A stretch of DNA of 33,122 bases from a candidate division CPR2 bacterium GW2011_GWC2_39_35 (GTDB lineage: Bacteria; Patescibacteriota; CPR2), in NCBI GenBank assembly GCA_000995065.1, contig LBWX01000002.1, positions 126,586-159,707 of the forward strand, in the 5' to 3' direction. Shown here piece after piece: positions 1,721 through 20,103 of this stretch. Every line of letters begins with the position of its first letter. Position 1 is the stretch's first letter. The notes beneath the pieces were generated by a model. It did no database searches. It had not been told where the DNA came from and worked only from the letters and a program-made list of their open reading frames with translations. The position numbers and the translations under genes were made by a program.

Positions 1721-1741
1721 TTAGTGCGAAAAATACACTAA
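1721..1741. repeat. Short hairpin of the TTAGTG...CACTAA family
   Basis: TTAGTG at 1721-1726 and CACTAA at 1736-1741 form a six-base stem around an A-rich loop that contains CGAAAAA. It overlaps the valS stop codon. Similar small hairpins occur at 8284-8304 and 13779-13803, both with A-rich loops ending in CG. It may act as a weak terminator or be a small dispersed repeat. Confidence 0.4.
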
Positions 1742-4056
1742 CTAAGGTTAATTTTCTTTATTCTCGCAAGATTTGCGATGAGTTCGATATGACTAGGAGA
1801 TATATTTTCCAATTCTTTTTTCTGAATTGTGTGGGAATCATCTTTAGTTAGGCCCAAGTTTCTAATTTTGGCAACTAGGCCTTGGATTATTTCGAACTCA
1901 TCGCTAGCCGCCTTATCTCTTTTGTATTCTTTCTGTGGCCATTCCTCGATAATAAGCATCTTATCTGATAACTCTAGGCCTTGCCAGATTGCTTCCGTTA
2001 CAAATGGCATAAAGGGATGGCTTAACTTGAGGGTTTCGCTAAGAACATATCTTAGTACGCCTTGAGTGTTGCCAGTAGTTTGGTGATCGTTAAGGTAGTA
2101 TTTGGAGCTCTCGACATACCAGTCGGCAAATTTATACCAAACAAAATCGTATAAAGCTTCGGCTGCCAAGTGCAGCTCATATTTCTCGATGTGCTTTGTC
2201 ATTGTCTCTTTTAATGTTTCCAGTTCTGAGAGGATCCACTGATCCGCAATCGTAAATGTTTCACGTGAAACTTCTTTAGCTTGGGGAGCATTCATTTGAA
2301 TAAATCTAGCGATGTTCCAAAGCTTAGTGACAAAATTTCGGTTTCCCTTAATCTTGTTTTCATCAAAATTCAGGTCGTTTCCGGGCGCATTCCCGATAAC
2401 CAGGCTAAATCTTAAGGCATCGGTGCCATAACCCGCAATAATATCCATGGGGTTAATAACATTCCCTTTGGATTTGCTCATTTTTTGACCCTTAGAATCG
2501 CGAATCAGTCCGTGGATATATACGGTTTTAAATGGCACATTATCCGTGATATAAATCCCCATCATGATCATTCGAGCCACCCAAAAGATTAAGATGTCCC
2601 AGGCAGTTTCCATGACGTCTGTCGGATAGAACTTTTTGTAATCTTTTCCATTTGGCCAATCTAGGGCAGCGTAAGGCCATTGGGCAGAGGAAAACCAGGT
2701 ATCAAAAGTGTCTTGGTCCCGGGTTAGCTTAGGGGATTTGCATTTCGGACACTCTTTTGGCTCATCGCCTTCGGAGACAATTATCTCACCGCACTCGCAG
2801 AACCATGCCGGAATCCTAATTCCCCAAACAATCTGGCGGGAAATATTCCAATCTTTTAAATTCTCCATCCAATTAAAGTAGATTTTCTCGAAACGTTTGG
2901 AAACAAACTTAATTTCCCCATCCTCTACCGCTTTGATAGCTCTTTTAGCTAAGTCTTTGGTTTTAATAAACCATTGTTCGGAGAGTAGAGGTTCGATATC
3001 TCGCCCGCATTTATAGCAAACTGCAGCGTTATGAGTTATTTCTTCGACTTTTTCGACTAGGCCTAGGCTTTCCAGGGTTTCAACAACTTTGGCCCTCGCC
3101 TTTTTTACGTGTAGGCCTTCGTAGTCTTTACCAGCTTCTGCAGTCATTTTTGCATTTTTATCGATTACCTGGATAGCCGGAAGGTTATGCCTTTCACCTA
3201 TCTCGAAATCGAGCGGATCGTGAGCCGGCGTTACTTTAACGGCGCCGGTACCAAACTCCATCTCCACTGCCCCATCAGCAATAATCGGAATCTCCCTATT
3301 TATTATTGGTAAGATAACGATCTCTCCAATAAGACTCTGATATCGTTTATCTTCCGGATTAACGGCGATGGCGGTGTCGCCAAGCATTGTCTCCGGCCTG
3401 GTAGTTGCGACGGTAATATAGCTGTTGGAGCCCTTAATCTGGTACTTGATGTATGTTAAATTAGTTTTTCGCTCTTTGTGGGCAACCTCTAGCTCGGAAA
3501 AGCCGGTTTGATGGTATGGGTCCCAATTTATAATTCGGTTACCGCGATAAATCAGCCCTTCATCGTACATCTTTTTAAAGACCTTGTAGACCGTCTCAAT
3601 GATGTCTTTATCCAGCGTAAATTTCTCCCGATCCCAGTCGCAGGACGAACCAAGAGCGCGAAGTTGGTTTTTTATATTGGATTTATTAGACTCCGTAAAG
3701 TCCCAAATCATTTGGTATAGAGTGTCTCGCTCGTAATCGAAACGAGTTTTGCCTTCTTTTTCGAGCACTTTTTCGTAGACGACTTGAGTTTCAAAACCAG
3801 CATGGTCTGTACCCGGTAGCCAGAGGGTTTCTTTGCCAATCATCCGGTTGTACCTAATTAAAATATCCTCAATTGTAACCATTAGAGCATGGCCAAGGTG
3901 AGCATTGCCGTTTGCGTTAAGCGGCGGCATGATAATCGAGAATTCGCCCTTGTCTTTACCCTTATTTGTTTCGGGCTTAAAGTAGCCACTCTTTTCCCAC
4001 TTTTCGTAAATTTTTTGTTCTTCTGCTCGGTCAAAACGCTTTTCTAACTCGGCCAT
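1738..4056 (-). CDS. valS: Valyl-tRNA synthetase
   Basis: This class Ia synthetase charges tRNA-Val and edits mischarged threonine. The HIGH motif is HLGH at residues 53-56 and the KMSKS motif is KMSKS at 525-529. Two CxxC pairs (around CYKCGRD and CECGE/CPKC) mark zinc-binding insertions, and an ATTRPETMLGD segment marks the editing domain. At 772 residues it is clearly shorter than the roughly 880-950 of typical bacterial ValS: the C-terminal coiled-coil arm is absent and the anticodon-binding domain ends soon after residue 760. The ATG is preceded by AGGAGG five to six bases upstream. Codons 596-600 (VSRET) encode an internal parS site. Expression is probably controlled by the T-box leader upstream. 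It is the only ValS in the window. Confidence 0.98.
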   Translation of the reverse strand: MAELEKRFDRAEEQKIYEKWEKSGYFKPETNKGKDKGEFSIIMPPLNANGNAHLGHALMVTIEDILIRYNRMIGKETLWLPGTDHAGFETQVVYEKVLEKEGKTRFDYERDTLYQMIWDFTESNKSNIKNQLRALGSSCDWDREKFTLDKDIIETVYKVFKKMYDEGLIYRGNRIINWDPYHQTGFSELEVAHKERKTNLTYIKYQIKGSNSYITVATTRPETMLGDTAIAVNPEDKRYQSLIGEIVILPIINREIPIIADGAVEMEFGTGAVKVTPAHDPLDFEIGERHNLPAIQVIDKNAKMTAEAGKDYEGLHVKKARAKVVETLESLGLVEKVEEITHNAAVCYKCGRDIEPLLSEQWFIKTKDLAKRAIKAVEDGEIKFVSKRFEKIYFNWMENLKDWNISRQIVWGIRIPAWFCECGEIIVSEGDEPKECPKCKSPKLTRDQDTFDTWFSSAQWPYAALDWPNGKDYKKFYPTDVMETAWDILIFWVARMIMMGIYITDNVPFKTVYIHGLIRDSKGQKMSKSKGNVINPMDIIAGYGTDALRFSLVIGNAPGNDLNFDENKIKGNRNFVTKLWNIARFIQMNAPQAKEVSRETFTIADQWILSELETLKETMTKHIEKYELHLAAEALYDFVWYKFADWYVESSKYYLNDHQTTGNTQGVLRYVLSETLKLSHPFMPFVTEAIWQGLELSDKMLIIEEWPQKEYKRDKAASDEFEIIQGLVAKIRNLGLTKDDSHTIQKKELENISPSHIELIANLARIKKINLS
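2257..2272. promoter_or_regulatory. Second parS site, inside valS
   Basis: TGTTTCACGTGAAACT matches the parS consensus at 15 of 16 positions. It is read through by valS as Val-Ser-Arg-Glu-Thr (residues 596-600), the usual peptide signature of a parS embedded in a coding frame. With the exact site at 1619-1634 it forms a two-site cluster. Confidence 0.85.
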
Positions 4057-4157
4057 ATAATCCTCCTATGGAATATTTTAGTTATGGAATAAATATCTAA
4101 TTTTGAGTTGTAATTTTGATTTTGCATTACTCATCCATCCATTTTAAATAAATAAAA

Positions 4158-4179
4158 TCCTCAAACGTTTGTTTAAGGA
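4158..4179 (-). terminator. T-box leader terminator
   Basis: Read on the minus strand, a nine-base stem (TCCTTAAAC with GTTTGAGGA, one G-U pair) and a four-base loop are followed by TTTTATTTATTT. It stops transcription about 100 bases before valS when uncharged tRNA-Val is not bound. Confidence 0.8.
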
Positions 4180-4230
4180 CCCTAGTAACGGTTAATGCCC
4201 CGTTTTGGGCGGTACCACCTTAATTCAGGA

Positions 4231-4294
4231 CTTCGTCATTGCGAGGAGCTGCCGATGAAGCAATCTAGATCGCCACGCCTTAGGCTCGCAATAA
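4231..4294. repeat. Dispersed repeat of the GTCATTGCGAG family
   Basis: An imperfect palindrome begins with CGTCATTGCGAG and ends with CTCGCAATAAC; in between are GAAGCAATCT and GATCGCCACGC. The same modules recur at 15338-15355 and 22132-22214. This copy sits inside the valS leader between the likely stem I region and the T-box core. Confidence 0.65.
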
Positions 4295-4362
4295 CTATTT
4301 AAGTCACTGCTCTTAATTTTAAGCTATGACGGGCTTTCCCGACCGGTTCTACTAAGTCAAAT

Positions 4363-4433
4363 TGTCATTCTGAACTTGTTTCAGAATCTCCCTCGTATAT
4401 TGATGAGATTCCGGATCAAAGTCCGGATTGACA
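4363..4433. repeat. Dispersed palindromic repeat, TGTCATTCTGAACTTG family
   Basis: The ends are inverted copies (TGTCATTCTGAACTTG and CAAAGTCCGGATTGACA), with inner pairing of CAGAATCTC and GAGATTC. Related copies lie at 9491-9587 and about 30106-30264. It lies inside the transcribed valS leader. Confidence 0.65.
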
Positions 4434-4513
4434 GCTTCCACTGTTCTTCCGGCAGCTTTTTGGGTGACATGAATCCCAAATAAAAGCGCTTTTGTATTGA
4501 ATTTTCTTGCTAT

Positions 4514-4542
4514 ATTATAAGGTTTTAGGGTGAATTTGTCAA
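4514..4542 (-). promoter_or_regulatory. Consensus sigma-70 promoter for valS
   Basis: On the minus strand a perfect -35 TTGACA (4542-4537), a 17-base spacer and a perfect -10 TATAAT (4519-4514). The predicted start near 4507 gives a leader of about 450 bases before valS, long enough for the T-box. Confidence 0.9.
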
Positions 4543-11707: not shown

Positions 11708-13381
<1,674 letters not shown>

Positions 13382-13977: not shown

Positions 13978-14451
13978 ATGAATCGCGAATTATTGCAAAG
14001 TGTTCTTAAGGAAGGAAAACTTAATAACCTACAACTTATACAGTTTGTTAATGAGGCGGTTGCGTTAGTTTCAAATGTATTCATCAGGATATTTGGATCC
14101 ATAGCTTTTGTTGAGGTGGAAATGGCAGAGATAGTAGCAGCGGCACAGGATTTTAGTTCTGGTCACGTTGACCTTTTCTTCGTGGACGAGATGAAGTCCT
14201 TTTGTCGTGAATCGAATCGACTCTACAATTATGCGACCGAATACATGACGTGGTTGAAACTCAATCCAATAACCCATAATTCTGAGCTCATATGTATGGC
14301 CGAACAGCAGGATGAAGCCATGCGAGTTTTGAGGAGCTTTGCCGTGATGTTTAGCACCCCGAATGAGGATAAGAAAGCGCGGGCACTTAATCAGGCGGCC
14401 AACTCTTGCAAACGCATCTTAAAAATTGACGAGGCTAGACAGCAAGCATGA
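13978..14451 (+). CDS. Unknown helical protein (cluster protein 1)
   Basis: A 157-residue, soluble-looking, mainly helical protein that I do not recognise. There is no signal peptide or clear membrane helix; the stretch VALVSNVFIRIFGSIAFVEVEM is hydrophobic but mixed with charges. AAGGAGGG sits nine bases before the ATG. The segment from about residue 136 (ALNQAAN...ILKIDE) resembles the C-terminal part of the next gene's product (ALQDAAN...VKLDEEHD), so the two may be distant relatives. After the TGA stop, protein-like sequence continues in the +1 frame to 14512, suggesting a frameshift or a shortened tail. Codon use and spacing look like a real gene. Confidence 0.75.
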   Translation: MNRELLQSVLKEGKLNNLQLIQFVNEAVALVSNVFIRIFGSIAFVEVEMAEIVAAAQDFSSGHVDLFFVDEMKSFCRESNRLYNYATEYMTWLKLNPITHNSELICMAEQQDEAMRVLRSFAVMFSTPNEDKKARALNQAANSCKRILKIDEARQQA

Positions 14452-14553
14452 TCTTGAAGAGCGAATCAGGAGGATCGAGATCGTTCGGGATCAGTGGGAG
14501 AAAAGAAAATAGATGATATGCAATTTGCATAGATTTGGAAGGAGATGGAGAAG

Positions 14554-15078
14554 GTGAAGCTTGAAAGTCCAATCATGCCGATCGTGAAGCTGGCTCAAGG
14601 AGGTTTGAGAGGAGGCTTTAGCGGCTTACAGGAAGCAAAAGAAGCCATCATATTACTGGCTGTCGAATCACAAAACATTTATGATCGAAATAGGCAATGG
14701 GATGAGAAACTGCCCTTTGGAGAGGCCGTGCAGTATTTTAATAACATGCTTCCCGGTCAAGTATCATCAACGGTCAAGGCCAATGAAAAGTTAGGGCCAG
14801 TATTGAAAATGTTTCTGGAGAAGTATTCTGAACTCGAGAAAGATAGGCGTCAGTACCAGCACGATCTGGAAAACTTCAAGAACAAGGAAAACTATCTGCG
14901 CGCCAAGATTGCTGTTTCGATACTTCGGCTTTTCGAGAAGGTTCTTCTTTCGTACAGTGCTACTTCTTCTTCTGAAGAACGTAATCATGCGCTGCAAGAT
15001 GCTGCTAATATCTTCATGGTAAAGCTAGACGAAGAGCATGATGTTGACAAAAGATTCAGGCAAGGCGAAGTTACTTAG
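14554..15078 (+). CDS. Unknown helical protein (cluster protein 2)
   Basis: A protein of about 174 residues of unknown function, rich in charged helices; residues 80-120 (FLEKYSELEKDRRQYQHDLENFKNKE) look like a coiled coil. I choose GTG 14554 as start because AAGGAG (14539-14544) is nine bases upstream; an ATG at 14545 is directly adjacent to that Shine-Dalgarno and less likely. The C-terminal ALQDAAN...KLDEEHDVDKR resembles the end of cluster protein 1. It appears to share a transcript with that gene (no terminator in the 100-base gap) and is followed by a large terminator. Confidence 0.72.
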   Translation: MKLESPIMPIVKLAQGGLRGGFSGLQEAKEAIILLAVESQNIYDRNRQWDEKLPFGEAVQYFNNMLPGQVSSTVKANEKLGPVLKMFLEKYSELEKDRRQYQHDLENFKNKENYLRAKIAVSILRLFEKVLLSYSATSSSEERNHALQDAANIFMVKLDEEHDVDKRFRQGEVT

Positions 15079-15155
15079 ACAGGTTTGTTGCTACGGGGTT
15101 GTGAGTAGAGTTTATGGTAAACTCACAACCCTCGTGGATAATGAACCTGTTTTTT
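15079..15155 (+). terminator. Large two-tier terminator after cluster protein 2
   Basis: An outer stem ACAGGTT (15079-15085) with AACCTGT (15144-15150) encloses a perfect GGGTTGTGAG/CTCACAACCC inner hairpin, followed by TTTTTT. It ends the first transcript of the cluster. Confidence 0.88.
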
Positions 15156-15276
15156 AATTCTCCCAAAAACTTTGAACCGCCTTCATTTCCCGAATCTAGC
15201 CTCTAAAACTGCCGTTAGGCTTTAGAACCTCCATAAAAAACTATCTATGACTGTCACTCAAGAGCAACTGGTAGGA

Positions 15277-15356
15277 GCGTGGCCATTCGGTCTTGAGCTC
15301 ATGGTCGAAGACAATCTTGTTTCGAGTTTGAGGGGATTGCTTCGTTTCTCGCAATG
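15277..15356. repeat. Repeat module, GGATTGCTTC...CTCGCAATGACG family
   Basis: It contains an exact 28-base inverted copy (15282-15309) of 8691-8718, then GGGGATTGCTTCG and CTCGCAATGACGG, the modules of the repeats at 4231 and 22132. The preceding 15156-15276 shows no gene or clear structure. Confidence 0.6.
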
Positions 15357-15400
15357 ACGGCTCGAAAAACGTTTTTCAGCGGTCTCTCTCCAGAAAACTA

Positions 15401-15429
15401 TTGACAGGTTTTATTTAAGTTGCTATAAT
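15401..15429 (+). promoter_or_regulatory. Perfect consensus promoter for the second cluster transcript
   Basis: TTGACA (15401-15406), exactly 17 bases, TATAAT (15424-15429). The predicted start near 15436 lies about 470 bases before the next gene, so a long non-coding leader or a separate small RNA is made. Confidence 0.92.
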
Positions 15430-15435
15430 ATCAAG

Positions 15436-15616
15436 CGTTAACAATTTAAATTGTATTTAAGCGAAAGCGTTATTACCCGTGACTGAATATGTGGTCACCT
15501 TTGAGGTCATGGGGAGCTAGTGGTGAAACCGGTCGTTATTTTTATTTTTTTGAGTAAACTATGAAAATACATGGATCGTTTTGTATTACCGGATCAGCTT
15601 TCGCTGGTCTTTTTTG
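15436..15616 (+). ncRNA. Candidate structured leader RNA or small RNA, about 180 nt
   Basis: From the consensus promoter to a clear terminator (GATCAGC, TTTC, GCTGGTC, then TTTTTT, about 15592-15615) there is no convincing open frame. Visible pairings include GTGAC/GTCAC near 15479-15500. The element GAAACCGGT occurs at about 15524 and again at about 15694 in the next structured domain. It matches no riboswitch, 6S, SRP, tmRNA or RNase P motif that I can recognise. It could be an attenuated leader of the genes from 15910 on, or an independent small RNA. Confidence 0.5.
15592..15616 (+). terminator. Intrinsic terminator in the 15436 leader
   Basis: A seven-base stem GATCAGC/GCTGGTC (one G-U pair), tetraloop TTTC and a six-base T-run. 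It lies upstream of the structural genes, as expected for attenuation or for the end of a small RNA. Confidence 0.8.
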
Positions 15617-15643
15617 TTGCTCATGGCATTAAGAAATTAATCA

Positions 15644-15767
15644 ACAAAAAGGCTGTTTAATATGACGCATCCTTACTGCTTACCGCCAGTTGCGAAACCG
15701 GTGTATTTTATACAAAGTAATTCGGTTTTGCCATTGGGCAAGAGCATGGGCTGATAAGCCTTTTTGT
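15644..15767 (+). other. Second structured RNA domain of the leader
   Basis: ACAAAAAGGCT (15644-15654) is perfectly complementary to AGCCTTTTTGT (15757-15767), closing a domain of about 120 bases. Inside, GCGAAACCG (15692-15700) pairs with CGGTTTTGC (15723-15731) around GTGTATTTTATACAAAG. GGGCTGATAAGCC followed by TTTTTG can alternatively form a small terminator using the right arm. The mutually exclusive pairings suggest a regulatory leader. Minus-strand frames here lack a ribosome site. Confidence 0.45.
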
Positions 15768-15909
15768 ACCTTAAGGAATTTCAAGCAAAAGAAGATGCCG
15801 CATGTCTTAAAATAGTCTTCTAGTGAAATATTTCTTATCCGGAATAATTTCATTTTTTTAGGCGAGGGAAACAAGATGTCGAGAATTCTGTATATGGGAG
15901 GTGAATTAC

Positions 15910-16308
15910 ATGTTTATTGGATTGGGCAGTAAAAGCAAAAGTAGAGAAATAATGCTGGTTGCCGAGGAAATAGCGGCGTTAGCAAGACTGGTTTCGGCGT
16001 TCGTAGGAGTTTTGGCACCGTATTCAAACAGCGATACTCTTAAGCGATTCGAGGCAGCACTCGCTAAACATTCCGATCATTTAAGCCTCGAAAAAGAGCT
16101 TCGTGTAAAAGTTGGATATGCGGCGCTATCTTACCATCTCAAGGCGGTAAGCAAGAGAACCGGTTATCGGGACAAGCCAAAAATTGACCTCGCGATCGAA
16201 GCCATACTATCGGTTTATCGCCTTATCTTACAGGAGAAGAAAAGCGATTTTCAAAAAGCAATAATGCATCTTCAAGGCGATATAGAGCGCTTGAGAGTCA
16301 AAGACTAA
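15910..16308 (+). CDS. Unknown helical protein (cluster protein 3)
   Basis: A 132-residue protein of unknown function, mostly alpha-helical and soluble, with a moderately hydrophobic segment (EEIAALARLVSAFVGVLAPY) near the N-terminus. I choose ATG 15910, since GGGAGGTGA (15896-15904) is at standard distance; an in-frame GTG at 15901 is inside that Shine-Dalgarno. A tiny frame at 15875-15931 (ATG after GCGAGGG; 18 codons) overlaps the start and could couple translation. It is the first gene after the structured leader. Confidence 0.75.
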   Translation: MFIGLGSKSKSREIMLVAEEIAALARLVSAFVGVLAPYSNSDTLKRFEAALAKHSDHLSLEKELRVKVGYAALSYHLKAVSKRTGYRDKPKIDLAIEAILSVYRLILQEKKSDFQKAIMHLQGDIERLRVKD

Positions 16309-16379
16309 AGAGACATGGGAAAGCATCTCGCTTGGAATTCCGGAAAAAGAAGTAAGTGTCGCAACGCGCAACTTGGCAA

Positions 16380-16426
16380 GTAAGGAGCTGAACGAATTAG
16401 TTCAAACTATTCATTCGGCTCCTTAC
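16380..16426 (+). other. Hairpin in the gap between cluster proteins 3 and 4
   Basis: GTAAGGAGCTGAACGAAT pairs with ATTCATTCGGCTCCTTAC (one wobble and one mismatch) around an 11-base loop, with possible outer pairing AGAAGT/ACTTCT. No T-run follows directly; a T7 run at about 16498-16504 follows a weaker TTCTA/TAGAA stem. It may be an RNA processing or attenuation element. Confidence 0.45.
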
Positions 16427-16555
16427 ATCACTTCTATTGGTGGAAAGATTCTATTTGCACTCTGCAAACGGCATCCTTCTACCGCTAGAAAGTAAAGTTT
16501 TTTTGGCCGGTAAGCTTGTTAACAACAAAATAAAATTAGAAAGAGGTAAAAAAGA

Positions 16556-17014
16556 ATGAAGAGTGCCACAGAATTGCTACGTGAAGCAGCGGAGCTTAAA
16601 GGAATGAATACGGAGAGGAGAATTGAGTTTTGTGCGGAAATATTGGACTTCGCCAAGGAGTTGTACGACGCAAACGGCGACTTTGCGAAAGACTTTAACC
16701 ACGCCGATGCGCCGTCAAGGGCAGTAGAAGCGTTTAGGGATAATTCAGAACTCGAAGTTCCCAATCGCAGCATCCTTGCTCTTTTAACGCATCACTTGTT
16801 CGGGTTAGGAGTTGAGATTAACGGTTCGAAGGAAGGCAGGTTGGGAAACCAGAACGCATTAGCCCTTATATCAACAGGGTTAATAGCAAACGTGCTGGTG
16901 CTTATCGGCCATCCTGAATCATTAATTAAGGAAAGGGCTATCAAAAGTGTTCAGACGGGTCTGAAAAGAGTAGTCGAAATGAAAACTGCCGAGAAAAATA
17001 CCAAACGGAGGTAA
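16556..17014 (+). CDS. Unknown helical protein (cluster protein 4)
   Basis: A 152-residue protein of unknown function, predicted helical and cytosolic. It starts MKSATELLREAAELKGMN and has a central hydrophobic helix (NALALISTGLIANVLVLIG) and a basic C-terminus (KNTKRR). GAAAGAGGT precedes the ATG. Its stop TAA lies inside the Shine-Dalgarno region of the next gene, so the two are tightly coupled. No catalytic motif is visible. Confidence 0.78.
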   Translation: MKSATELLREAAELKGMNTERRIEFCAEILDFAKELYDANGDFAKDFNHADAPSRAVEAFRDNSELEVPNRSILALLTHHLFGLGVEINGSKEGRLGNQNALALISTGLIANVLVLIGHPESLIKERAIKSVQTGLKRVVEMKTAEKNTKRR

Positions 17015-17017
17015 AAC

Positions 17018-17431
17018 ATGTTTCCTGAAGAGTATGCAGACGTTGTAGATCCGCTCATTTCCGACGAAGCAAGGCTAGATCTTGCTTTAGATATCGGCGA
17101 AGAGGCGGCTCGAATTCTAGAAGAGACCTATGGCACTCAAATACCTTGCATAGTTATGCAGGCAATAAGAGAGAATGCATATAGGGAAACAGGGGAAGAA
17201 ATCACTCTCTTTATAGAGATGCAAATCGGGTCACTACTAAGAGACGCAAGATCTGACCAATTGGGGGATCATAAACAAAGATGCTCTCGATATAGTCTAC
17301 TCATGATTATCTATTATGTTTCGAATCTGACATTAAGATCGGGAGGTTACAATAAGCTTATGATTGCGCAGATACTAGCAAACACGATTAGTACGAATTT
17401 TCAGAAAGAAAGCCTCGTGGTTATGTGCTAG
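17018..17431 (+). CDS. Unknown helical protein (cluster protein 5)
   Basis: A 137-residue protein of unknown function with an acidic N-terminus. Its segment EEAARILEETYGTQIPCIVMQAI (29-50) resembles SDRMVQIIEQVGYEMPKEIMDSV in the last protein of the cluster (residues 26-48), hinting that the two are distant paralogs. GGAGGTAA is seven bases from the ATG and overlaps the stop of the previous gene. No catalytic motif or membrane helix is evident. Confidence 0.78.
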   Translation: MFPEEYADVVDPLISDEARLDLALDIGEEAARILEETYGTQIPCIVMQAIRENAYRETGEEITLFIEMQIGSLLRDARSDQLGDHKQRCSRYSLLMIIYYVSNLTLRSGGYNKLMIAQILANTISTNFQKESLVVMC

Positions 17432-17466
17432 GAGGCGGATGCATGTTGATAGAATTATGAGGGTAG

Positions 17467-17784
17467 ATGATAAAAACTTGGAGAGGGGGTTCAGAGTTGA
17501 TTACAATCATAAATGAAGCGTTCGAGAAAAAACTCGAAGTTATGGTCACATATGTTAGTCGTGACTGGAAAAACTTACCTGCCGGGAGCGATACTAGAGA
17601 ATTAAGGAATAAATGTAACGAATTTCTAAGCCATTTCGGTCTTAACGCCGATAACTTGGAAGATGTTCTTATCTGGGCGCTAACAAGGGAAAGGGTGTCT
17701 GAATTTCCGAAGGATGAAGCCTATCTGGTATTCGCGCGCCAGCTTAAAGATTTCGGCGAAGAATGCGGAATCGATCTTGCTTAA
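17467..17784 (+). CDS. Unknown small protein (cluster protein 6)
   Basis: A 105-residue acidic, helical protein of unknown function. The start is uncertain: ATG 17467 has GAGGG only three bases away, while TTG 17497 (giving 95 residues, MITIINEAFEKK) has GAGAGGGGG at a better distance. A 25-codon frame that begins at 17439 with GGAGGCGG before it overlaps this start, echoing the small overlapping frame before cluster protein 3. No motif is recognised. Confidence 0.68.
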   Translation: MIKTWRGGSELITIINEAFEKKLEVMVTYVSRDWKNLPAGSDTRELRNKCNEFLSHFGLNADNLEDVLIWALTRERVSEFPKDEAYLVFARQLKDFGEECGIDLA

Positions 17785-17909
17785 TTTAGATTCATAAGTC
17801 TTGTTGGTTGTAGCTGCGGGATTATCGTAAGGGCATTATAGGGATGGCAAGGTACGGGAGGATGAGAAGCTTAAATGACCTGATTCATTGATGAATGGAG
17901 GTGATATGA

Positions 17910-18044
17910 ATGCGAATACCAAAAAAAGTTTTTCGATTGCGCAGCTCGACCTCATTTCGGCGCGAAACTGTCTGCTATGATCCGAAATTTGGATCAAGTA
18001 GTTTCTGGGTGACCGTCTTGCCAAAAAGAAAAAGGCGCAGCTAG
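17910..18044 (+). CDS. Possible 44-residue basic peptide
   Basis: A short frame MRIPKKVFRLRSSTSFRRE...LPKRKRRS with many Lys/Arg and no acidic stretch. It has one of the best Shine-Dalgarno sequences in the cluster (GGAGGTGA, 17897-17904) at the same spacing as its neighbours. An alternative ATG at 17906 in another frame gives only 24 residues. Its size and charge would fit a nucleic-acid-binding peptide, but this is only a possibility; it could also be a leader for the next gene. Confidence 0.4.
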   Translation: MRIPKKVFRLRSSTSFRRETVCYDPKFGSSSFWVTVLPKRKRRS

Positions 18045-18096
18045 TAAAGAAAAGGATCAAAAAATAAACTATACAGTTGGCGAGGAGGTGAAAAAG

Positions 18097-18465
18097 GTGG
18101 ATAAAGAATCAGTTCGGGTTACAAAAGATCTGCCGTGGTCAAAAGATCCAATCGGATCTTTAAAGGTGATCTCGGATAGGATGGTTCAGATCATAGAGCA
18201 AGTTGGATATGAAATGCCGAAAGAAATAATGGATTCGGTCTTTGTAAACAAGCATCATGTGAGTACGCCGATTGGTTATCCAATCGCAACAGATGCCATA
18301 GCAAAGTTACTTATGCTTTTGGGAGATCTAAAGACTCTTCAAGCATCGTCAGCCATTATGGCAACCGAAGCCCTTATTCATATCGTTGAATACTTGCAGG
18401 CGGAGAATGATGAATCGCTAAAAGATCTTATACATCTTGGCATCGAAGCTATGCAAGCGGCCTAA
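18097..18465 (+). CDS. Unknown helical protein (cluster protein 7)
   Basis: A 122-residue protein of unknown function. I start at GTG 18097 because GAGGAGG (18083-18089) lies seven bases upstream; an in-frame GTG at 18088 is part of that Shine-Dalgarno. The second half (DAIAKLLMLLGDLKTLQASSAIMATEALIHIVEYL) is amphipathic helix without a true membrane span. Residues 26-48 resemble cluster protein 5. It is the last gene before a strong terminator. Confidence 0.76.
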   Translation: MDKESVRVTKDLPWSKDPIGSLKVISDRMVQIIEQVGYEMPKEIMDSVFVNKHHVSTPIGYPIATDAIAKLLMLLGDLKTLQASSAIMATEALIHIVEYLQAENDESLKDLIHLGIEAMQAA

Positions 18466-18684: not shown

Positions 18685-20103
18685 ATGAGCCTGCAAAAAA
18701 AGACAAAACTTATCGCCACTATCGGTCCGGCTACAGATGATCTGGAAATGGTGACGGAGATGATTAGAGAAGGAGTAAACGTCTTTCGGCTTAATTTTTC
18801 TCATGGTACTTACGAGAGTCATGCCAGGCTCGCTGGTCTAATTCGCGAGGCGGCCGAAAAACTTGATGTCAACGTGGCCATTTTGCAGGATCTCCAAGGC
18901 CCAAAGATCAGGGTCGGGTTAATTCCGGATGACAATATGAATCTGAAAAAAGGCTCAAAGGTTACTTTAACTGCTGTCGAGCCAGAAAATGGGGAAATTC
19001 CGCTTCAGTATAAAGACTTGGTAAAAGACGCGAATCCAGGCGATTTAATCCTTTTGGATGACGCTAATCTCGAACTCAAGGTTTTATCCAAAACAGACGA
19101 CAAGATCTTGGCGAGAGTAATTGTCGGCGGAATCCTAAAGTCAAACAAAGGCATTAATCTGCCTACTTCAACTATCTCCGCTCAATCTATTACCCAGAAA
19201 GATAGAAAAGATCTTGAATTTGGACTTAAGCTTAATGTTGATTTTGTGGCTTTATCTTTCGTAAAATCGGCCGAAGACATCGAAGAATTAAGAGCGCTTA
19301 TCAAAAAACATGGTGGCACGGCTAAAATTGTGGCAAAGTTAGAACGTCATGAAGCCGTAAAGAACATGGAAGAAATTGTAGCGGCTACTGATGTTGTTAT
19401 GGTAGCAAGGGGCGATCTTGGAGTGGAGCTTAAGACCGAAAAAGTACCGGTAATCCAGAAAAAGATGATCAAGGAATGCTTAAGACAAAACAAACCGGTA
19501 ATTGTAGCGACCCAGATGCTAGAATCTATGATCAAAAATCCGCGTCCCACGAGGGCAGAGGCGACGGATGTCGCTAATGCCATTTTGGATGGGGCGGATG
19601 CCGTGATGCTTTCGGCCGAAACTGCTACCGGCGAATATCCGCTTGAGGCCATAAGGACTATTACGGAAATTGCAAAAGACGTTGAAGATTGGGTAACAAG
19701 AAATGAGATCGTAATCGGTAGATCGACTTTGAGGGAACCGGAGCAAGTAATCGATGCTATTGCGAATACTGTCGTTCGACTTGCAAAAAATACCGGGGCA
19801 AAGCTTATTATGACGGCTACTTCTACCGGAAAAACGTCTACTGTTATCTCTAACCGTAGACCGTTTGTGCCGGTTCTCGCCACAACTCATAACGACAAGG
19901 CCAAAAGATATATGGCTATTTTATGGGGAGTTGATGCCTATAAAGTAGATTTTGACACCGTGGCAGAAATGCTTGATAGTGGCATGGAGCTAGCAAAATC
20001 CACAAATTACGTGAAAAGCGGTGATCGTATCATCGTGGCTTCCGGTAAATTCCCCGGTGTTCCCGGCGGAACAAATATAGTTGAGGTTAAGACTGTTGAA
20101 TAA
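18685..20103 (+). CDS. pyk: Pyruvate kinase
   Basis: This enzyme converts phosphoenolpyruvate and ADP to pyruvate and ATP, the last step of glycolysis. The 472-residue protein has the TKLIATIGPA start, NFSHG (37-41), DLQGPKIRVG (69-78), the catalytic KLE (Lys218, Glu220), ARGDLGVE (241-248) and the signature run MLESMIKNPRPTRAEATDVANA (278-299), plus a normal C-terminal allosteric-type domain (about 340-472). AAAGGAG is upstream of the ATG. It is probably a single-gene transcript. Confidence 0.99.
   Translation: MSLQKKTKLIATIGPATDDLEMVTEMIREGVNVFRLNFSHGTYESHARLAGLIREAAEKLDVNVAILQDLQGPKIRVGLIPDDNMNLKKGSKVTLTAVEPENGEIPLQYKDLVKDANPGDLILLDDANLELKVLSKTDDKILARVIVGGILKSNKGINLPTSTISAQSITQKDRKDLEFGLKLNVDFVALSFVKSAEDIEELRALIKKHGGTAKIVAKLERHEAVKNMEEIVAATDVVMVARGDLGVELKTEKVPVIQKKMIKECLRQNKPVIVATQMLESMIKNPRPTRAEATDVANAILDGADAVMLSAETATGEYPLEAIRTITEIAKDVEDWVTRNEIVIGRSTLREPEQVIDAIANTVVRLAKNTGAKLIMTATSTGKTSTVISNRRPFVPVLATTHNDKAKRYMAILWGVDAYKVDFDTVAEMLDSGMELAKSTNYVKSGDRIIVASGKFPGVPGGTNIVEVKTVE

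Follow-up and report, generated by a model that had tools for sequence, protein, structure and literature searches.

Ultrashort T-boxes that carry the specifier in an apical loop have been described mainly in Actinobacteria, where they precede ileS and act on translation. Four classes of T-box are distinguished in PMC10482949, in which class III is described as having a short stem I, a specifier in an apical loop of 5-6 nt, a need for stem II and a mostly translational mode of action. Transcriptional T-boxes, as outlined in a 2020 review (PMC7583486), generally need a long stem I with a tRNA-elbow-binding motif, partly because the tRNA must be caught before the polymerase passes the terminator. 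The hosts named by Wels et al. 2008 (PMC2494555) are Firmicutes, Actinobacteria, Chloroflexi, Deinococcus/Thermus and two Proteobacteria, and the TBDB account (PMC7778990) describes an ultrashort model that was run on reference genomes of Actinobacteria as well as on truncated class I finds. In the open-access literature, to which the search was confined, we found no paper on a T-box in the Candidate Phyla Radiation, Patescibacteria, Saccharibacteria or Parcubacteria.

The window, by which we mean the whole stretch of 33,122 nt that was analysed, carries valS at 1738-4056 (valyl-tRNA synthetase, 772 aa, with tRNA-synt_1 and anticodon-binding domains), preceded by AGGAGG at 4062-4067; the gene and all features of its leader lie on the minus strand. 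The leader (4146-4513) is a predicted T-box riboswitch in a Patescibacteria (CPR) genome. It follows a sigma-70-type promoter, TTGACA-17-TATAAT (4514-4542; 12/12 matches to the consensus), with a probable transcription start near 4507, and the order from 5' to 3' is promoter, stem I, stem II, stem IIA, stem III, antiterminator, terminator, U-rich tail, AGGAGG and ATG. An earlier note on this DNA had proposed that valS in this probable CPR genome is preceded by a T-box, with the T-box core, a competing terminator, an A73-compatible base and a perfect promoter in the right order; each of these elements was confirmed in the sequence, and the proposal is supported by the antiterminator, the terminator, the promoter and a Val specifier. 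With a probability of roughly 0.88, we conclude that an ultrashort, class III-like T-box controls valS by transcription attenuation, and that two dispersed repeats are lodged in the apices of its stems II and III. The anatomy, the match of codon and discriminator, the covariation in relatives and the mutually exclusive hairpins on which this conclusion draws can all be read in the sequences. No direct repeats were found inside the window. A second exact TTGACA-17-TATAAT promoter is present at 15401-15429 (plus strand), between small unknown frames; the region 13978-18465 (plus strand), from groEL (11708-13381) to a pyruvate-kinase-like gene (18685-20103), both named by eye from the frame list, holds small frames of unknown function. 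In one genome scan, the nearest named relatives of the window's ValS were mostly clostridial, after one Patescibacteria record, and transfer of this gene is possible.

Stem I (4454-4490) is ultrashort. Its base pairs AGC (4488-4490) with GCU (4454-4456), a K-turn-like internal loop lies above, and an upper helix of UUUGGG (4475-4480) and CCCAAA (4459-4464) supports an apical loop of 10 nt, AUUCAUGUCA (AUUCAU-GUC-A; 4465-4474). This loop presents the Val specifier GUC (4466-4468) followed by A4465. The codon is cognate to the genome's tRNA-Val(GAC), and GUC is also the specifier in ValS leaders of relatives. The same tRNA carries A73 (3' end ...CCC-A-CCA), so the UGGU of the antiterminator bulge fits its ACCA end. 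The earlier note had let its case hinge on a stem I with a Val codon, and the hairpin at 4454-4490 supplies one. Stem I closes at the specifier loop, and both repeats lie downstream of it. The hairpin appears in the fold of the leader; alone it folds no better than shuffled sequences (z = -0.96), and helices 1 and 2, which form it, covary in 99 aligned leaders. The K-turn of the window leader is off consensus, with GCUUUUA/AA compared to GUUUGA with GA, AA or UA in relatives. Stem I appears intact. A placement of stem I inside the repeats, suggested by the RF00230 alignment, was rejected: the codon would be ACA, and relatives give no support for it.

Stem II (4343-4452; z = -2.97 for the fold of 4321-4460) is closed by CCGG (4449-4452) paired with CCGG (4343-4346), a base that is paired in 100% of cells and changes on both sides (helix 3, 99 leaders), and it contains S-turn-like strands, GAAGAA at 4444-4449 and AGUAGAA at 4347-4353. 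Stem IIA, CGGG-AAAG-CCCG (4330-4341), is present in the fold and its helix 4 covaries; it is the putative IIA half of the pseudoknot. Stem III (4226-4309) pairs CAGUGACUU (4301-4309) with AAGUCCUG (4226-4233), with a fold z of -2.78 and covariation in helix 5. Both repeats are palindromic and fold as extensions within these stems. The first (4363-4433; 8 matches in the genome including itself) is the apical extension of stem II, and the second (4231-4294; 4 matches including itself) is that of stem III, giving interiors of 102 nt in stem II and 78 nt in stem III compared to medians of 25 and 8 nt, respectively, in the 99 leaders.

The earlier note had placed the repeats where stem I and the linker should be and had suggested that the sensor was rebuilt, degraded or displaced. 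The placement was wrong, since the repeats are the apices of stems II and III, and damage to the sensor is unsupported, with an ultrashort and apparently intact stem I upstream. In the comparison of leaders with and without repeats that the note had proposed, two relatives lacking the inserts (L092 and L093) have a stem I that matches the one in the window, which gives no support to a loss of the sensor. A wrecked T-box, in which terminator and antiterminator persist, stem I is gone and valS is constitutively attenuated, would fit the presence of two dispersed repeats in the leader and the poor alignment of the repeat region by RF00230 (22.9 bits). We regard it as very improbable, because the GUC-bearing stem I precedes both repeats and agrees with that of these insert-free relatives, the ileS paralogue and the leaders of genomes G001 and G002 have inserts at the same apices yet keep cognate codons, and specifier and discriminator match in 3/3 leaders of the own genome.

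A further possibility is that the repeats are not passengers but working parts which tune the switch, for example as spacers or as hairpins bound by a protein. In 6/6 family leaders before valS or ileS (own genome, G001 and G002; the row of the own ileS is partial, since a second insert splits its match), the interior of stem II measures 89-126 nt, compared to 18-32 nt in 11 of the 12 other leaders of the class that were aligned, and in the thrS leaders of G001 and G002 such palindromes sit in stem III. Against this, the inserted sequences vary between genomes and recur elsewhere in the own genome, the twelfth leader of the comparison (L102, not a family member) holds 101 nt of another sequence in a long stem II, and the same core is found in relatives without inserts. 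A working role is unlikely. The repeats are most simply read as passengers that inserted at tolerant apices, and they would then be harmless. Read in this manner, the repeats show where a structured RNA can tolerate dispersed hairpins.

The antiterminator, TTAAGG-TGGTACC-GCCC...GGGT-CCTTAA (4173-4223), consists of helix A1 (UUAAGG 4218-4223 with CCUUAA 4173-4178), the bulge UGGUACC (4211-4217) and helix A2 (GCCC 4207-4210 with GGGU 4179-4182), and its helices 6-8 covary. The sequence GGTGGTACCGC occurs once in the window, where 0.14 occurrences would be expected with up to one mismatch, and exact GGTGGNACCGC occurs 3 times in the genome, before valS, ileS and thrS. Folded alone, the antiterminator of the window is no better than shuffles (z = -0.70). 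The intrinsic terminator (hairpin at 4153-4184, U-rich tail at 4146-4157) has a predicted energy of -12.1 kcal/mol and z = -4.4, and was also recovered by a terminator scan, although chance alone would give 0.7 sites of this kind in the region. Since CCUUAA at 4173-4178 is common to antiterminator and terminator, the two hairpins are mutually exclusive as written. The ileS and thrS leaders of the same genome also carry terminators that share the antiterminator strand.

Across the aligned leaders, we counted hairpins followed by a U-run in the 75 nt that follow the antiterminator. With an energy of -4 kcal/mol or less they were present in 86/117 leaders compared to 19/116 control regions taken 400 nt downstream and to 6-20 in five shuffles (the end of one leader with a split match, L106, was set by hand), and at -10 kcal/mol the counts were 48/117 and 2/116. 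A stricter terminator rule found 69/117; the energy rule is preferred for counts. In the remaining 31/117 leaders no terminator reached -4 kcal/mol, so that attenuation is supported for most leaders and not for all, and these 31 may use weak terminators or another platform. The same 31 relatives, together with a stem I and stem II architecture corresponding to class III, which PMC10482949 describes as mostly translational, would fit a translational switch like that of actinobacterial ileS, in which the ribosome-binding site is hidden or exposed and the U-tract is incidental. We regard this, too, as very improbable: a strong terminator that uses one strand of the antiterminator is present in the window leader (z = -4.4) as well as in the own ileS and thrS leaders, and AGGAGG lies approximately 80 nt beyond the terminator hairpin, with no complementary strand noticed.

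Under transcription attenuation, we infer that the leader binds tRNA-Val, senses its charging and terminates transcription in the cell as follows. The ACCA end of uncharged tRNA-Val would pair with UGGU in the bulge and stabilise the antiterminator, and RNA polymerase would then read through into valS. When tRNA-Val is charged, the terminator hairpin would take CCUUAA and transcription would stop. The two dispersed palindromic repeats would only lengthen hairpins at the apices of stems II and III.

Specifier and discriminator match the genome's own tRNA in 3/3 leaders, those of valS, ileS and thrS. The ileS leader has the 6-nt loop CCAUCA, the specifier AUC and the bulge UGGU, and the genome's tRNA-Ile(GAU) has A73; the thrS leader has the loop CCUCACCAA, the specifier ACC and the bulge UGGA, and tRNA-Thr(GGU) has U73 (UCCA end). 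The thrS leaders of the own genome, G002 and G001 (L316, L317 and L318, respectively) all show an ACC-A hairpin loop and a stem IIA-like element, with a recognisable stem II absent. By their predicted anatomy they fall below all four described T-box classes in length. At L061 (2096-2168, minus strand) we observed a degenerate second copy of tRNA-Thr(TGT) without CCA, beside an intact one.

Scanning the minus strand with the Rfam model RF00230 gave no match in the valS leader at the model's cut-off (22.9 bits, gathering score 93). The earlier note had taken a score below threshold as grounds to abandon the T-box, and the score did fall below it. However, the cut-off also missed 20/20 related loci tested, which points to a limit of the long-stem-I model rather than to absence of a T-box; the equation of a low score with no T-box was rejected, since the threshold fails on all of these loci and passes 11 of 20 named ValS loci (L210 and 19 others, mostly clostridial). 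Among 379 Patescibacteria genomes, RF00230 passes its cut-off in 13, compared to 139 with the model described below. T-boxes in CPR are thus not undetectable as such, and ten of the leaders above the cut-off (L303, L305, L306 and L308-L314) look by eye like canonical long-stem-I forms, so the idea that CPR T-boxes are all ultrashort was also rejected. Rfam misses the ultrashort set (0/20 loci above the cut-off). Near L303 there are frames of at least 150 aa, with no recognisable synthetase among them.

The motif precedes valS in 6 of 30 ValS loci from 59 genomes of the phylum, the window's own included. We built a covariance model, R1, from six seeds reduced to their cores, namely the own valS and ileS leaders and the valS leaders of G001, G002, G005 and G006; thrS was left out because its MAFFT alignment with the others failed, and L050 because it was too divergent. 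At E ≤ 0.001, R1 matched 13/16 genomes of the class and the 139/379 genomes of the phylum; at E ≤ 1e-9, about 100 of the 379 (101 by table count). The full window leader, itself one of the six seeds, scores 92.9 bits, and the best match in nine named non-CPR genomes scored 33.8 bits. Among 299 genomes from the phylum of L265 (Clostridium manihotivorum), one matched at E ≤ 1e-9, and that match has a long stem I. For comparison of sequences we used 117 aligned leaders (99 plus 18), which are the best-scoring matches plus thrS and not a random sample; two second, overlapping matches (L110 and L111) were not aligned. A synthetase gene lies downstream in 113 of them by tblastn labels (IleS 59, ValS 32, AspS 15, SerS 3, and TyrS, ProS, AlaS and ThrS 1 each), the remaining four (L130, L160, L177 and L197) having no identified synthetase. 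An NCBIfam check of family names covered 30 proteins and agreed for 11/11 divergent IleS/ValS.

The codon at one fixed position of the R1 model was cognate to the downstream synthetase in 89/113 leaders and non-cognate in 24, and cognate in 83/107 when the six seeds were removed; 2000 shuffles of the labels gave 33.7 on average and never more than 47. Asp and Asn codons were both scored as cognate for AspRS; refusing Asn for L150 (aspS_bact) gives 88/113. The base after the specifier in the 89 cognate leaders was A in 83, G in 5 and C in 1. A separate hairpin rule found a cognate codon in 86/113 (shuffles: mean 34.4, maximum 49), and 101/113 were cognate by one rule or the other. For most of the 12 that fail both, a hairpin with a cognate codon is visible by eye, in hindsight; the clearest true exceptions are L148 (IleS) and L208 (ValS). 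The AspRS leaders, mostly of the non-discriminating kind, have Asn (AAC) or Asp (GAC) specifiers (L118, L133, L150, L176 and L193, and L129, L132, L166, L178 and L203), as if either tRNA could serve as the signal. One ValS leader (L167, 151-293, plus strand) has two successive codon hairpins (GUC and AUC), which may reflect a duplication of stem I. In the 99 leaders, all eight helices changed on both sides, with AU, GC, UA, CG and GU types at one pair of the stem I base; 95.6% of cells were paired compared to 38-47% with slid partners, and 826 both-side changes were observed compared to 221 in shuffles, counts that are favourable because the leaders were aligned to the structure of the model.

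Compared to described systems, the window leader satisfies by sequence what defines a T-box in general: a cognate specifier, a UGGN/NCCA match, mutually exclusive hairpins and a tRNA-charging gene downstream. With class I (Bacillus subtilis tyrS, RF00230) it shares the antiterminator with a UGGN bulge, the competing terminator, stems II, IIA and III and the synthetase gene downstream. It lacks the long stem I of that class, with its double T-loop and internal-loop specifier: the stem I of the window ends at the specifier loop, has neither AG bulge nor distal double T-loop motif, and bears the specifier in its apical loop. The own thrS leader resembles class II (Bacillus subtilis glyQS) in that it also appears to be without stem II, but its stem I is ultrashort whereas that of glyQS is long. 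Patescibacteria may hold a lineage-wide, unrecognised T-box branch that combines an ultrashort stem I with fast attenuation for many amino acids, and in which the thrS form of the family, with an ultrashort stem I and a stem IIA-like element but no stem II with an S-turn, would use neither known reinforcing contact and would be a fifth class; we advance this tentatively, as a possibility a little short of even odds. The leaders collected here are numerous natural T-boxes that appear to be transcriptional yet lack the elbow-binding motif, making the requirement for a long stem I, as set out in PMC7583486, directly testable. They also provide the reduced and poorly understood Patescibacteria with a predicted regulatory mechanism, the sensing of tRNA charging, which largely escapes standard annotation.

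The closest likeness is to class III (Nocardia farcinica ileS type), as characterised in PMC10482949. Shared features are a short stem I that lacks the distal double T-loop motif and presents the specifier in its apical loop, a purine directly after the specifier, a K-turn, stem IIA and a stem II with an S-turn, the last being a likeness by sequence only (GAAGAA/AGUAGAA). The loop has 5-6 nt in class III compared to 10 nt in the window valS leader and 6 nt in the own ileS leader. Class III is mostly translational, whereas an intrinsic terminator is predicted from sequence after most Patescibacteria leaders (86/117), and class III ileS leaders respond to Ile alone, whereas the Patescibacteria set covers Val, Ile, Asp/Asn, Ser and others. 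The window system is further set apart by its occurrence in Patescibacteria and by the inserts in stems II and III. Since a class III-like sensor is here joined to a class I-like expression platform, we call the valS leader class III-like rather than a member of class III.
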